Part shown: positions 38,087-43,857 of the stretch, one piece after another | Layout: each line of letters opens with the position of its first letter | Position numbering within the stretch: position 1 is the stretch's first letter | Origin: Paramyrothecium sp. XJ0827 | Taxonomy: Eukaryota > Ascomycota > Sordariomycetes > Hypocreales > Stachybotryaceae | NCBI GenBank assembly: GCA_020881915.1 | Contig: JAJFPB010000006.1 | Span: 2,170,001-2,234,000, forward strand | DNA: 64,000 nucleotides | Direction of reading: 5' to 3' | Notes under the pieces: model-generated | Databases searched by the model: none | What the model saw: the letters and a program-made list of their open reading frames with translations, nothing else | Told to the model about the DNA's origin: nothing | Made by a program: the position numbers and the translations under genes

Positions 38087-38956
38087 ATGCCTTCATCAGT
38101 CGACGATGTGCAGCCTCATGAAGCTCTATTGTCTCGCTATCGAGGCACTGATAGCTACGACGAAAAGCCACCTTCAAAAGCACACTTGCTTTGTGCCAAA
38201 TTTACATTTCACTACTGGCTGGTGTTGGTCATTCTGTTGGTATCACTTGTCCTCAATGTTGCCCAACTGTCTTTATCTCTCCGTCCGGTAGCTCCCATCA
38301 AGTATCAGGAGCCACCTTCAACATATGCTCACCTAGGTCGCACATACAAAACGCCCTATGTCTACGTAACAGAATATGCCGCAGACAACGAGACTGTTCA
38401 GGATGAGGCCTGGATGGGTATCGACGACGATCTAGCCATAGTGGCACTATCAGACGATTTTGCCGCCGCCCACGAGCTGCGCAAGGCCCAGAGGTTTCCT
38501 TGGGACCACAGCAAGGGTCTCTATGTCCTTCATGGCATTCATAACCTCCACTGCCTGAAGAACATTTACATATCACTCAGGGAACATCGTCACGGCGTCG
38601 AGCAGTCACGTTCATGGGGCCATATCAGCCACTGCCTCGACACTTTACGGCGGCAGATCGTTTGCGATGCGGACGACACACCTCGTGCTACCGAGCGGCG
38701 TCCCGAGATTGTAGCCGGGCTCGGACAGTATCGCATGTGCCGCAGCTGGGACGCCTTGGAGGCATTTGCAAAGCGTCACACAGCATGCTACAAGCGCCCA
38801 GGCGGGATAGAGTCAGACGAACCGAAGAGGCTGGACAGGTTCAAGCACTGCCCGCCAGGAAGTGGATATGTTATTACGGACGATTACGTACCAGTGGATG
38901 AGTTCATGGTAGGCCTGCCGGACGAGAATGTCGGATATGTCGAAGAGGAACACTGA
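38087..38956 (+). CDS. UstYa-family (DUF3328) oxidase-like protein 1
   Basis: Intronless, 289 aa. A cytosolic N-terminus is followed by one membrane segment (about residues 42-65, rich in Leu/Val) and a lumenal domain carrying the two family motifs HxxHC: HNLHC (152-156) and HISHC (179-183). A conserved Cys follows in RRQIVCDADD. UstYa-family proteins catalyse oxidative cyclisation or hydroxylation in ustiloxin, phomopsin and asperipin RiPP pathways, and other oxidations in the cyclochlorotine pathway, probably with a metal held by these His residues. The C-terminal tail of about 80 aa after the core domain is longer than in gene 2. It is convergent with the small Kex2-repeat precursor gene 384 bp away, which suggests that the precursor is its substrate (inference). 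Confidence 0.92.
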   Translation: MPSSVDDVQPHEALLSRYRGTDSYDEKPPSKAHLLCAKFTFHYWLVLVILLVSLVLNVAQLSLSLRPVAPIKYQEPPSTYAHLGRTYKTPYVYVTEYAADNETVQDEAWMGIDDDLAIVALSDDFAAAHELRKAQRFPWDHSKGLYVLHGIHNLHCLKNIYISLREHRHGVEQSRSWGHISHCLDTLRRQIVCDADDTPRATERRPEIVAGLGQYRMCRSWDALEAFAKRHTACYKRPGGIESDEPKRLDRFKHCPPGSGYVITDDYVPVDEFMVGLPDENVGYVEEEH

Positions 38957-39340
38957 GTATCGTGCGAGCTGGGAATGGGTGCGTAATTTGGATGATGAAT
39001 ATTCATGTCATTCATTGGCGTGGAGATTATTTTAATGCTACCATGCTCCTAAACTCTTTGGCTCGTGGCATAAGCACAACGTCTCGTGGTGGGTGCACCA
39101 GATGGAGGGTTCCATTTCAGATTGGCTTCATGTTGAACACTTGAGACGTTCCCGATATGTGGTACTGGTGTTATTTGGTAAACCATCAGACGCACTGTTA
39201 CGCAAATTACGAATACAGATGACTGAAGTTGATAGACAGAAGCTTGTTTAGGATACTACCAATCTATTCATCCAATTCATTCTCTCGTTATCGCAAGACG
39301 TCATGGGCAAAAAGTATTTCCTCGAGATAGCTTGTTTGTT
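38957..39340. other. convergent intergenic region
   Basis: AT-rich space between the UstYa-like gene 1 stop codon and the precursor gene's stop codon; no gene seen. Confidence 0.5.
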
Positions 39341-39590
39341 TCATTGTTTGAAGGCCTCGGAGACCTCAATTTCCATTTCGTCACGCTTAAAGGCCTCGGA
39401 GACATCGATTTCCATCTCATCGCGCTTGTGACCTTCGTTGACTTGGATGCTGGCAGCTCTAGACTTTACTAATCGTGGACATTAGATTAGCGGCCTAACT
39501 CAGGAATTAATTGACATTCTCACCAGCTGGAAGAGCAGCTACAAGGGCGAACAGCCCAAGGACAATACTCTGAATAGCGACGACCTTCAT
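39341..39590 (-). CDS. candidate RiPP precursor: signal peptide + two Kex2-flanked repeats
   Basis: Two-exon gene too small for ordinary ORF calling. Exon 1 is 39590-39524, exon 2 39468-39341, separated by a 55-bp GTGAGA...TTAG intron; 64 aa. Residues 1-22 form a signal peptide (MKVVAIQSIVLGLFALVAAL, then PA). A linker ending in GHKR (35-38) follows, then two tandem units, DEMEIDVSEAF (39-49) followed by KR, and DEMEIEVSEAF (52-62) followed by KQ at the stop. KR pairs are Kex2 sites, so secretion would release two near-identical 11-residue cores. At DNA level the two 13-codon units (39427-39389 and 39388-39350) differ mainly at synonymous third positions, and the one amino-acid change is Asp/Glu, so the peptide itself is under selection. 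A TATA-like element is at about 39659-39666. It lies between two UstYa-like genes, the arrangement of dikaritin-type RiPPs. The core has no Tyr, unusual for known UstYa substrates. Confidence 0.8.
39350..39427 (-). repeat. two 39-bp tandem coding repeats (core peptide units)
   Basis: Units 39389-39427 and 39350-39388 each encode KR plus an 11-residue core. Differences are synonymous (Arg, Asp, Glu, Ile, Phe codons) apart from one Asp-to-Glu change. Confidence 0.85.
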
Positions 39591-40627
39591 GTTGCTGGTT
39601 TTGTATGCTTTTGAGTAACTTGGGAGGGCTAAGCTGGACGTGGAGAAACTGAAGAGTGTGAATATAATACCCAACAACAAATAATTCCTTAGGACAAAGT
39701 CAAGTGGCCTACATTATTGAAAGACCTAGCGCCTAAGGCGGGCTTGATATCTCTTTCGCTGTCGGACAAGAGGTTTCAATCTCCACTTCCACTTAACTGA
39801 CCGCCACACCCAGTCGCTGCAACGAACTGAATCGAGTGAAGTGAAGGGGCACAGCGCCGTCTCTGCTGTACCATTGCACGTGGCATGGTGTCTATTGAGA
39901 CTTTGGTTGTGCTTTGGGACGTTGGCCATGCACTGAAACTGTTCCATTGCCAAGTGATAAGCCAGCACACCTCATATACCAGAAAGTCTATCCTGCAGTT
40001 TGTGTAACCACCATTTTTATTGTGCTTTGGGACTTTGGTCATGCACTGGAACCGTTTCATTGCCAAGTGATAAGGCGGCACACCTCATATATCAGAAATC
40101 CTGTGCCAATGTTTGTGGAACCAATCCCGTGCGAAGAGAATGTGCGACGTGGCAATATGTGCATTGTAACATTGCCAGGATCTACCAATAGCTCCCAAGT
40201 CATTCACCAACGCCTCGTTGCTTTTGTATATTTCTTTCGCACTGTGGGGGGTCAGCCCAGGGATTTCGGTGCCTCCCCAGTTGAGAAAAGAAATGTGCAT
40301 CTTGAGCTTCTTACCAGATACGAGGCACCCGGAAGCTGGAAATTTACGAGCATGTAATGCTACTAGAAATATGGGAGTAAAGTCGATATGTCCAGTGACC
40401 GTAACCCTACAATACCACCATTCATGCTCTCACTCCCTCGAAACTCACCCTGATGTGTGCATGTTCACTTCCCTTGCCACACCAACTTGCATTAAGAGTC
40501 TACCTAGGTACAATTTCCAGCCACTCTGCATATCTCTATTTTATTATTTCCCATTCCCTATTTCCTACAAGTTATACTGTCCTGCCCGCATACTTGTACG
40601 CTTGCTCATTTCAAAGACAGCGTCCTT
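39591..40627. promoter_or_regulatory. divergent promoter region, precursor gene / UstYa-like gene 2
   Basis: About 1 kb between the start codons of the candidate precursor (-) and UstYa-like gene 2 (+), so both promoters must lie here and co-regulation is possible. It holds a 78-bp direct duplication. The open frames crossing it show no family features. Confidence 0.55.
39908..40098. repeat. 78-bp direct repeat, two copies
   Basis: Copies at 39908-39985 and 40021-40098 match without indels at a constant 113-bp offset, with a modest number of substitutions. They share blocks such as CATTGCCAAGTGATAA and CACACCTCATATA. They sit inside the divergent promoter region of the candidate RiPP locus. 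Confidence 0.85.
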
Positions 40628-41466
40628 ATGGCAGCCCATGGAGGCGAGTATCGGCGACTCACAAATGATGAAGAGGAGCAGACTTGTTCTGAGACTAAGG
40701 GCCAAGGAAAGATTTTACCCAAATGGTCTCTGTTGGCTGTTACGTTGCTCCTCTTTCTATCGGCCGCAGGAGGCTTTCTTGCGGGCGCAGCTTGGGGGCG
40801 GAAGAGCACAAGCATTAACAAACTGGGATACATGGAATCCTCCACGGCACCTCGGATTCCGATACCATACATCTCGGAAAAGTTTGTATATTCTTCACCC
40901 TTCTCCCTAGAGCCCCCTCAAGGGGAGGGATCAGGGGAAGAGTCTGAGCCAATATGGGATTCACTGGTGCCAAGTGAGTTGCTTCACAGGCATGAACTAC
41001 AACTTTAACCATATCCTCTGTCCAGCGAACTAACCATAACGTAATGAAACTCATCAATGTAGATGGTCTAGGTTACTTTCGTGACGGTCTTCTGGCCCCA
41101 ATCGTCTCCATCCCGACTACATTTCACCAGCTACACTGTCTGTACATACTCAGGCGTGCGTATTACTCGGCCGAGCCTAAGGATGAACTCGAGGCATTCG
41201 ACTTTGGCAAGAACAGGACCCTGCACGTGGCGCACTGCTTTGACTACCTAAAGCAAACCATTGTGTGTTCGGCTGACAGCACCATCGAGCCCTCTGAGGC
41301 CGATGAGAACACTGACGGCTTCCTCGGCAGCGGAATTTTTCGACAATGTCGCAATTTCGACGTGCTGAAGCAGTATGTGGAAAGATGGAGGGTCTTTAAT
41401 GCGACGGGATTTCTAGCTGCCGGTATTCTTCATGGGAAGGCCCGTGTACATGAGGATAGCCCGTAG
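40628..41466 (+). CDS. UstYa-family (DUF3328) oxidase-like protein 2
   Basis: Exons 40628-40973 and 41063-41466 give 249 aa. The order is as in family members: short cytosolic N-terminus (YRRLTNDEE), one membrane helix (about 34-56, LLAVTLLLFLSAAGGFLAGA), then the lumenal oxidase domain with HQLHC (137-141) and HVAHC (170-174), FDYLKQTIVCSADSTIEP and FRQCRNFDVLKQY, the classic family signature. This copy is closer to the consensus than gene 1. Two UstYa-like proteins often work together in fungal RiPP cyclisation (ustiloxin UstYa/UstYb). The gene starts 1.04 kb from, and points away from, the candidate precursor gene. Confidence 0.93.
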
Positions 41467-42176: not shown

Positions 42177-43857
42177 ATGAGCAGCTCGGCCATTCCTCCG
42201 CCTCCTTCACCGGAGCAGGCGGCAGCCATGGCTACAGCGGCGAGGAATTTCGCAATCGAGATCTGGACTCTGTTGGGCGTTGGCACCATGGTCACTATTC
42301 TTCGCACCTACGCACGAATCAGACAAGTGGGGGTATCGAGGCTTAAGCCAGACGATTACTTGGTTTGGCTGGGACTTGTCAGTATCTCTAGCAAACCATG
42401 TGGCAGTGTTACATGGGATCAGACTGACTTTAGCAGATTGCATATGCAGCTGAGACTGGACTCGCCTATGTAATAAGTAGCATCGCTCGGGGACTGGCGA
42501 ACAACGGAATGTCCGACGCTCATAGGGCAGCTCTACGACCAGACAGCGAAGAGTACCGCCTACGGCAGCTCGGTTCCATCATTACGCTTTGCGGCTATGC
42601 TGCCTGCGCGGTCTGCATGTGGTCCCTCAAGGCCGCCTGGCTATTCTTCTATAAACGATTGACTGTAAGGCGAGGCCCATATCGAATCTATCCACCAAGT
42701 CCTGTCTAATATCTTCTCAAGAGTGGTCTTCAGGGCAGCTATCGGCTTCACATCAACGTCGGCTTCGCCTTCGTTCTCGTTAGTCCTGTTATAGCAATCC
42801 TTTCACTCTTTCTGAGCTGTCGCCCCTTCCACCACTACTGGCAGATCAATCCAAATCCCGGAAGTAAGATTCTACAAGTCTATCTTTTTAACTATGACAC
42901 AAAACTCGTTGCTAATCATGGCTCCTTCCTTCATTCAGACGTCTGTCAGCCGGCTCTATCCAACGTTATCATCTGGGTTTTCTGGGTATTCAACGTAGCC
43001 ACCGATCTCTATGTCCTTGCCATTCCACTTCCAATGCTTTGGCAATCCCGATTGCCGACACCAAAGAAACTCGCTCTCATATTTCTTTGCTGCGCAGGCG
43101 CTTTAGTTATTGTTTGTACCAGTCTTCGAGTTGGTTACATTGTGTCTGTGAGATGCCCCCGGTTCTTCTTCGAATGTCCTACCTGGATCCTCGGGTGGAA
43201 AGAATTGTAGTAGTGGCTAATCAGAATAGGATCCTTTAAATGGCTCCATGCAAGCGGGTTCATGGGCCGTACGGGAGTGGTTTGTCGCCGTGGTGACAAC
43301 CAACCTGCCTATCGTTTTCCCTTTACTCAGGGCGTGGTTCAGCCCGGTAACCACAACAATCTCCAGCAGTGTGTACTCGTACAAGAAGTCGTCCAACAGC
43401 GCTCCTAGGGTCATCCGCACGTTTGGGGGTGGAGGTGGTTCGAGCCGGCGTGGTGGCGCACCCACCGCCAACCCTCTCACCAATGTTACATGGGCTGAGA
43501 GTGAAGCGCACATGATAGACGACATGGAGCTGAGCGATTCCCAGCATTGGAAAGAGGTTAACTCTGTACAGGTGACAGAAAACGGGGCGACAACTCAGAT
43601 TCGGAAGTCTGTGGAAGTGGCTGTCTACCGGGAGGACAAGCTACATGTTCTTCAGACAGAGCCCAACAACGGCAGCAATCAGCCAGGCTGGCCCATGGGG
43701 GAGGGCAAATATCACGCTTCTGCCCGGGGTCCTGAGGCTCCGCGCACTTGGCCTAGGTATGTCAGAAACCTCACCTGCTCGTACGTAGCCTCCTTTGAGT
43801 TTTCATATTGCCGCGTTTTGATCGCTTGGGTCTAACAGGAATACAACAGGGCGATGA
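42177..43857 (+). CDS. fungal rhodopsin-domain (PTH11/SAT4-like) integral membrane protein
   Basis: Six exons inferred: 42177-42377, 42437-42664, 42722-42863, 42939-43147, 43230-43756, 43839-43857 (1,326 nt, 441 aa; phases agree throughout). Seven hydrophobic segments, with family blocks TILRTYARIRQVG, LKPDDYLVWLGL, CMWSLKAAWLFFYKRL, CRPFHHYWQINP, NVATDLYVLAIPLPMLW and REWFVAVVTTNLP. A polar tail of about 150 aa with a Gly-rich patch (FGGGGGSSRRGG) follows. The family groups with PTH11-like receptors and SAT4-type proteins; several sit in secondary-metabolite clusters, but molecular functions are mostly unknown. The last tiny exon ends the protein TWPRNTTGR; reading through the last intron would instead give 26 other residues. 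Its place next to the UstYa genes may be meaningful. Confidence 0.85.

Follow-up and report, generated by a model that had tools for sequence, protein, structure and literature searches.

Three genes of Paramyrothecium sp. XJ0827 that fill positions 38087-41466 of a 64,000-nucleotide stretch of DNA (the window; C12:2170001-2234000 in a genome of 51.8 Mb on 15 contigs) probably form a small fungal UstYa/Kex2 unit for a ribosomally synthesised and post-translationally modified peptide (RiPP). This reading is given a probability of about 0.78. A putative precursor gene on the minus strand lies between two plus-strand genes, termed UstYa-1 and UstYa-2, which encode members of the DUF3328 (PF11807) family. 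An earlier note on this DNA had proposed such a system, consisting of a secreted Kex2-type precursor and two UstYa oxidases, and the proposal is now well supported, chiefly by a diverged copy of the whole trio on a second contig, C10.

The precursor gene and the flanking UstYa enzymes

The precursor frame occupies 39341-39590 on the minus strand and comprises two exons (67 + 128 nt) separated by a 55-bp intron; it encodes 64 aa, MKVVAIQSIVLGLFALVAALPAVKSRAASIQVNEGHKRDEMEIDVSEAFKRDEMEIEVSEAFKQ. Exon 1 (39524-39590) specifies the signal peptide MKVVAIQSIVLGLFALVAALPA which, judged by eye, possesses typical n-, h- and c-regions, and a similar exon 1 is found in the C10 copy. The phase-1 intron (39469-39523, GTGAGA...TTAG) contains two CTAAT branch-like sites and has a 59-bp phase-1 counterpart at the equivalent place in C10. 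An alternative in-frame splice (39515..39464, donor GTCAAT) is likewise open. Exon 2 (39341-39468, including the stop) reads as spacer, KR, core 1, KR, core 2, KQ and stop. Its Kex2-type KR sites are residues 37-38 (39422-39427) and 50-51 (39383-39388); core 1, DEMEIDVSEAF, spans residues 39-49 (39389-39421), and core 2, DEMEIEVSEAF, residues 52-62 (39350-39382), the two being identical at 10 of 11 residues. The earlier note had described this same two-exon frame with its signal peptide, two KR sites and two 11-residue units, and had placed the splice edges at 39524 and 39468; each of these points was confirmed, both positions being exon edges. Likeness to Kex2-flanked repeats holds for core 1, which has Kex2 sites at both ends, and fails for core 2, which runs into KQ and the stop; thus only core 1 is bounded by KR on both sides. 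A gene this tiny is easily missed.

Upstream of the first KR, the residues SIQVNEGH are identical to the last eight core residues at three of eight positions (shuffle P ~0.001), and GVSTSDGY, before the first dibasic site of the C10 precursor, shows the same degree of identity (3/8, shuffle P ~0.001) to the ends of its own cores. These likenesses were tested only after being noticed. SIQVNEGH has the appearance of a worn repeat of the eight residues at the end of the core; the worn units end in His (window) and Tyr (C10), not Phe. If real, they would mean that each precursor once had one more repeat and that the last position in C10 can be Tyr.

UstYa-1 (38087-38956, plus strand) is a single exon encoding 289 aa, with a hydrophobic segment at about residues 33-66 and the motifs HNLHC at 152 and HISHC at 179. 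UstYa-2, a protein of 249 aa, is divided between exon 1 (40628-40973, plus strand), which encodes a hydrophobic segment at about residues 29-56, and exon 2 (41063-41466), which carries the PF11807 region with HQLHC at 137 and HVAHC at 170. The intervening 89-bp intron (40974-41062) has an alternative 98-bp form that is likewise open; the 89-bp form yields the sequence VPNGLGYF, which the C10 copy also yields with a 54-bp intron. Both proteins matched PF11807 well above the cut-off (E 6.3e-21 for UstYa-1 and 5.8e-22 for the exon 2 stretch of UstYa-2), and each has two HxxHC motifs and a single hydrophobic segment near its N-terminus, confirming that the precursor has a UstYa-family gene with two such motifs on either side. 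DUF3328/UstYa proteins are implicated in C-H hydroxylation, halogenation and ring closure. Paired HxxHC motifs constitute the copper site of the family (PMC12435403). A search of solved structures returned a KIN protein homologue as its best match (E 0.37), which is not meaningful.

A second, diverged trio on C10 and the evidence for coding

Exon-level UstYa matches in the genome numbered 28 and were grouped by eye into 15 loci. The UstYa pair at one of these, on C10 (L009, 10 kb), is spaced nearly like that of the window, and the locus was therefore searched with the window precursor. The order and strands found there are those of the window, with UstYa-1' on the plus strand, precursor' on the minus strand and UstYa-2' on the plus strand. 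The C10 precursor is predicted to comprise 96 aa with a signal peptide, directly followed by the phase-1 intron as in the window. Its cores, DDAEVGIADGF, DEEVKVADGF (twice) and DEEVEIADGF, are separated by KR or KKR, and all four end in Phe. None of the four contains Tyr, which occurs instead at residues 27 and 45, the latter being the end of GVSTSDGY.

UstYa-1 and its C10 counterpart share 51.6% identity over 279 aligned codons (pN 0.32, pS 0.81), and UstYa-2 and its counterpart, whose start codon is uncertain, share 53.4% over 206 (pN 0.33, pS 0.86). Each window enzyme finds its best match elsewhere in the genome in its C10 counterpart, and within the fetched loci the relation is reciprocal. 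A genome search with the window precursor gave other matches at E<=10 only on C10 (E 0.025 and 5.4; 3 candidates scored), while the reverse search with the C10 precursor gave E 0.005 and, up to the same limit, no match at any other place (3 candidates scored). Against the 10-kb C10 locus alone, with composition correction off, the window precursor matched at E about 2e-7, and its exon 2 gave a match at 2.2e-6 in a smaller C10 search. The case for a second precursor is made jointly by its position, strand, intron and layout. The C10 trio indicates that the unit is real and is the best support for its RiPP-like nature.

This duplication bears on the possibility that the Kex2-processed repeat peptides remain linear, as signal or effector peptides, and that the UstYa pair serves another product. 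In its favour, 6120 of 7878 Kex2-repeat genes lack a DUF3328 neighbour (PMC7329392) and UstYa enzymes also work in non-RiPP pathways, as described in the part of PMC12048977 that concerns them; furthermore, Tyr, on which three proven pathways rely, is missing from the window cores. However, in both diverged copies the precursor is flanked by the same two UstYa types, and the other neighbours are not common to the two. Within 80 kb around the C10 copy, the only window open reading frames (ORFs) to reach E<1e-6 are those of the two UstYa genes and of a highly reducing polyketide synthase (PKS). We therefore regard linear peptides as unlikely.

The PKS itself might suggest that the trio belongs to a larger hybrid cluster. 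Related PKS genes lie near both copies (window 7.5-16 kb; C10 5516-5523 kb), and that on C10 is the best other match, at 67%, to one window ketosynthase piece. With a 1585-aa piece, however, the C10 PKS ranked fifth among other loci by best stretch (best 30 of 152 candidates), and the distance to the trio is 22 kb in the window versus ~10 kb on C10, with a different relative orientation. Moreover, the C10 stretch (C10:5516609-5519584) is apparently a decayed relative of the window PKS, having 13 in-frame stops where it matches, some of which introns could explain. As the longer-piece ranking failed and the C10 PKS looks degenerate, the PKS was rejected as a member of the unit, and a hybrid cluster seems barely credible.

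We assessed the precursor frame against chance by scanning all six frames for paired similar units with KR or RR at their borders; the scan was designed after the finding had been seen and is hence a check and not a blind test. The window gave one match, the precursor, whereas 20 sequences of 64 kb simulated under a dinucleotide model gave none, and neither did 70 kb of DNA flanking the C10 copy. The repeats themselves carry a signature of constraint. Among the 36 bases of the window repeats there are 6 differences; all of them fall at third codon positions and they cause a single D/E change (random-substitution P 0.0016). Between the two C10 cores of identical amino-acid sequence there are seven base differences, again all at third positions and with no amino-acid change, a result reached in 0 of 100,000 trials; for the three other C10 repeat pairs, third positions account for 8/10, 7/9 and 5/9 differences (P 0.0002, 0.0009 and 0.023). 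This pattern points to translation, not to a particular strand.

Several observations weigh against a RiPP unit. The third-position pattern also fits an opposite-strand open frame, the amino-acid changes in the precursor and opposite frames being 1 versus 0 for the window and 0, 2, 2 and 3 versus 1, 3, 3 and 4 for the C10 pairs. Such a frame has its third positions in common with the precursor frame and is conserved to about the same degree, so repeat conservation was dropped as proof of strand. The window precursor contains neither Tyr nor Trp in its 64 aa and has two clear repeats only, the second without a downstream Kex2 site. The similarity of the two precursors is weak by sequence alone (genome-wide E 0.025), and the C10 intron is without a CTRAY branch-like site. 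A single-sequence fold of UstYa-1 had a mean pLDDT (predicted local distance difference test) of 42.8, with the membrane helix alone confident, and was too poor for a test of the copper site. None of the 47 tyrosinase (PF00264) matches in the genome falls within C12:2170001-2234000, and neither a peptidase nor a transporter was found among the 39 window stretches covered by a Pfam scan, which did not reach every exon. Finally, shared words of 9-12 bases were not in excess over shuffles, either between the upstream regions of UstYa-1 and of the precursor and UstYa-2 or between the upstream regions of the window and C10 copies, and a shared regulatory motif was rejected on this basis.

A chance or decayed frame, or a true gene on the opposite strand, would accord with the tiny size of the frame, its two clear repeats and the plus-strand open frame at 39303-39431, which is equally conserved between repeats. 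Conversely, C10 holds a longer precursor in the equivalent place, on the minus strand and with the same layout of signal peptide, intron and KR sites; no signal peptide could be seen by eye in the plus-strand frames; and the scan drew no match from either the simulated or the control DNA. Three features, namely the putative signal peptide, the intron position common to both copies and the KR sites, assign the gene to the minus strand, and we consider a chance, decayed or opposite-strand origin very improbable.

Neighbouring genes and other UstYa loci

The Pfam scan covered 39 stretches of a window that has at least 78 ORFs of at least 120 aa. Neighbours recognised by it include an aldo/keto reductase (36.2-36.9 kb), HET, LigB, alpha/beta hydrolase and P450 genes and the highly reducing PKS; past UstYa-2 lie a fungal rhodopsin-domain gene, a flavin-domain fragment and a PigL_N/SesA-like gene. 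No stand-alone methyltransferase was found among the scanned stretches (not every ORF), the only such domain being within the PKS at 10-15 kb. The claim of the earlier note that the system is complete is accordingly not borne out by the 39 stretches scanned, among which peptidase, transporter and stand-alone methyltransferase were all lacking. Near the C10 copy, at 5.53 Mb, there is likewise no tyrosinase, C10 having no PF00264 match beyond 1.9 Mb. Upstream of both the precursor and UstYa-2, in the region common to the two, is a 109-bp tandem duplication, 83% identical (39902-40010 and 40015-40123); a repeat of this type is absent from the corresponding region of the C10 copy.

A rhodopsin-domain (PF20684) gene follows UstYa-2 in both copies (window 42177-43300; L009 7742-9091). 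The family is very large, with at least 155 matches in the genome (best 150 of 230 candidates scored), and the window and C10 genes gave no match to each other in either comparison; the gene was therefore rejected as a fourth member of the unit. At least 4 of the 15 UstYa loci have a PF20684 match no more than 1.6 kb away (window, L009, C8:5789138-5789497 and C14:3159383-3159790), which may reflect shared genomic neighbourhoods; a link to peptide reception is a speculative idea. Two pairs of rhodopsin-domain matches, C2:822837-823568 with C2:1327714-1328445 and C2:388694-389161 with C4:137684-138151, have equal scores and frame lengths within each pair, which suggests recent duplications.

Kex2-repeat frames occur in the fetched stretches of at least 6 of the 15 UstYa loci (window, C10, C8, L016, L020 and L021). 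Those at L016 922-1686, L020 8204-8812 and L021 6892-7446 stand beside UstYa genes and have units such as DAAEKYKLY, ESTNNQAGWG and DPILDIN...SSY. On C8, a Kex2-repeat gene between UstYa genes (L026 694-1401; C8:5795693-5796400) has five repeats of the form DSDEAVVYPA[SQ]VDQ[TS]WVDA, each opening a separate exon after a phase-1 intron of 53-69 bp; four of these exons measure 69 bases and the last extends to the stop. Exon-per-repeat genes of this sort escaped the frame-based scan. A precursor like those of the window and C10 was sought at the related C8 and C14 UstYa loci and rejected, the C8 Kex2-repeat gene being unrelated and C14 yielding none under two filters. A family table of UstYa pieces was incomplete, lacking genes split by introns, and no tree was built from it.

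Proposed pathway and comparison with known peptide systems

If transcribed, the precursor would be taken into the secretory pathway by its signal peptide and cut after KR by a Kex2-type protease. Kex1-type carboxypeptidases trim the KR that remains after a Kex2 cut, and such trimming would leave the acidic, Phe-ending 11-residue peptide DEMEIDVSEAF. Core 2 would keep its KQ tail or represent a less well processed copy. Calculated [M+H]+ values of the linear peptides are 1284.530 for DEMEIDVSEAF, 1298.546 for DEMEIEVSEAF and 1554.699 when the KQ tail is retained; those of the C10 cores are 1108.516, 1108.479 and 1123.479. The two UstYa oxidases, presumably membrane-anchored, lumen-facing and copper-dependent, could then modify C-H bonds in the core, with the C-terminal Phe and an aliphatic residue inside the peptide (Ile5 or Val7) as the likeliest targets. 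The outcome might be a ring as in victorin, a beta-hydroxylation or a desaturation, after which the modified peptide would be secreted. A Phe-to-aliphatic bond is the most natural guess because victorin, in the account considered below, is closed between its C-terminal Phe and an internal Leu; hydroxylation and desaturation are the alternatives. The unit appears to have been duplicated long ago, and its C12 and C10 copies encode different cores and presumably different products.

More speculatively, the two trios might represent a Tyr-independent subfamily of UstYa RiPPs, in which a dedicated enzyme pair reads an acidic D-E-x-E-I/V leader within each repeat and links an aliphatic carbon to the C-terminal Phe without tyrosinase or other tailoring. 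C12 and C10 would then make two peptides with parallel enzyme pairs, and two-repeat precursors would be a layer that surveys have missed; we offer this as a tentative extension that we doubt more than we favour. The presence of the trio twice in one genome provides a natural comparison, with the same two enzyme types and different cores, that would reveal the residues recognised by UstYa enzymes and whether crosslinking works without Tyr.

The system resembles those of ustiloxin, phomopsin and asperipin-2a in its signal peptide, its Kex2-bounded repeated cores and its adjacent DUF3328 enzymes with HxxHC motifs. In known pathways, as set out in the relevant section of PMC9233826, Kex2 of the Golgi cuts the precursor and UstYa homologues ring-close the core. 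The crosslinks of the three named peptides use Tyr, and ustiloxin and phomopsin need tyrosinase (PMC7329392), whereas the window precursor is without Tyr and the window without a tyrosinase match. Among repeats beside DUF3328 genes, 65.6% contain Tyr (PMC7329392); about a third are thus without it, the window precursor among these.

How far the name dikaritin applies depends on the definition. Ding et al., as quoted in a passage of PMC12048977, list five genes: precursor, tyrosinase, methyltransferase, several DUF3328 genes and transporter/peptidase. In the window, the precursor has an N-terminal leader, with a signal peptide judged by eye, ahead of repeated cores, of which two are clear; there are two DUF3328 proteins and no tyrosinase. 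In the broad definition, also taken from a passage of PMC12048977, a DUF3328 protein with two HxxHC motifs is the class-defining enzyme, and both UstYa-1 and UstYa-2 possess these. Chemically, a dikaritin has a core Tyr for the crosslink and an ether crosslink in its product, and there is no Y in the window precursor. The label 'dikaritin-type' used in the earlier note therefore stands in the broad sense and not in the narrow one.

The victorin pathway also uses UstYa-family enzymes. In the portion of PMC9233826 devoted to it, victorin of Cochliobolus victoriae derives from a multicore precursor, likely cut by Kex2, and its core is closed via a C-terminal Phe and an internal Leu. The window and C10 precursors are likewise multicore and their cores Phe-ending; core 1 is a Kex2-bounded, Phe-ending core, and the four C10 cores also end in F. 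Differences lie in the core sequence, the repeat number and the accessory genes, no halogenation or other tailoring gene having been identified beside the window trio. A further likeness is to CctR, the cyclochlorotine hydroxylase, a DUF3328 protein with an N-terminal membrane anchor, paired HxxHC motifs and two copper ions per monomer (PMC12435403); its substrate, however, is a non-ribosomal peptide.

As a secreted precursor with near-identical units between dibasic sites, the window gene also resembles the Kex2-processed repeat proteins (KEPs) of Umemura 2020 and Le Marquer 2019. The former survey demanded at least three tandem repeats of at least 8 aa between KR, KK, RK or RR, with a signal peptide by SignalP (PMC7329392); the window precursor, with two clear repeats and a worn unit, falls short, whereas that of C10 has four. 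The latter, in the section of PMC6339444 giving its thresholds, demanded at least four fragments after KR/RR cuts, at least three of them similar, and the two KR sites of the window precursor yield three fragments. As both surveys, so described, call for three repeats, a two-repeat gene would be counted by neither, although the C10 gene has enough; two-repeat precursors as a whole fall outside such counts.

The suggestion that the system is possibly new is fair for the core sequence and is not fair for the kind of system. A literature text search with five core strings returned nothing relevant. Across fungi, DUF3328 genes are concentrated beside Kex2-repeat genes, and 1758 of the 7878 Kex2-repeat genes found in 1461 strains surveyed in 2020 have DUF3328 neighbours (PMC7329392). 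With so many cases already counted, the trio probably adds a member to a class of modified fungal peptides that is already known and does not found a new one.

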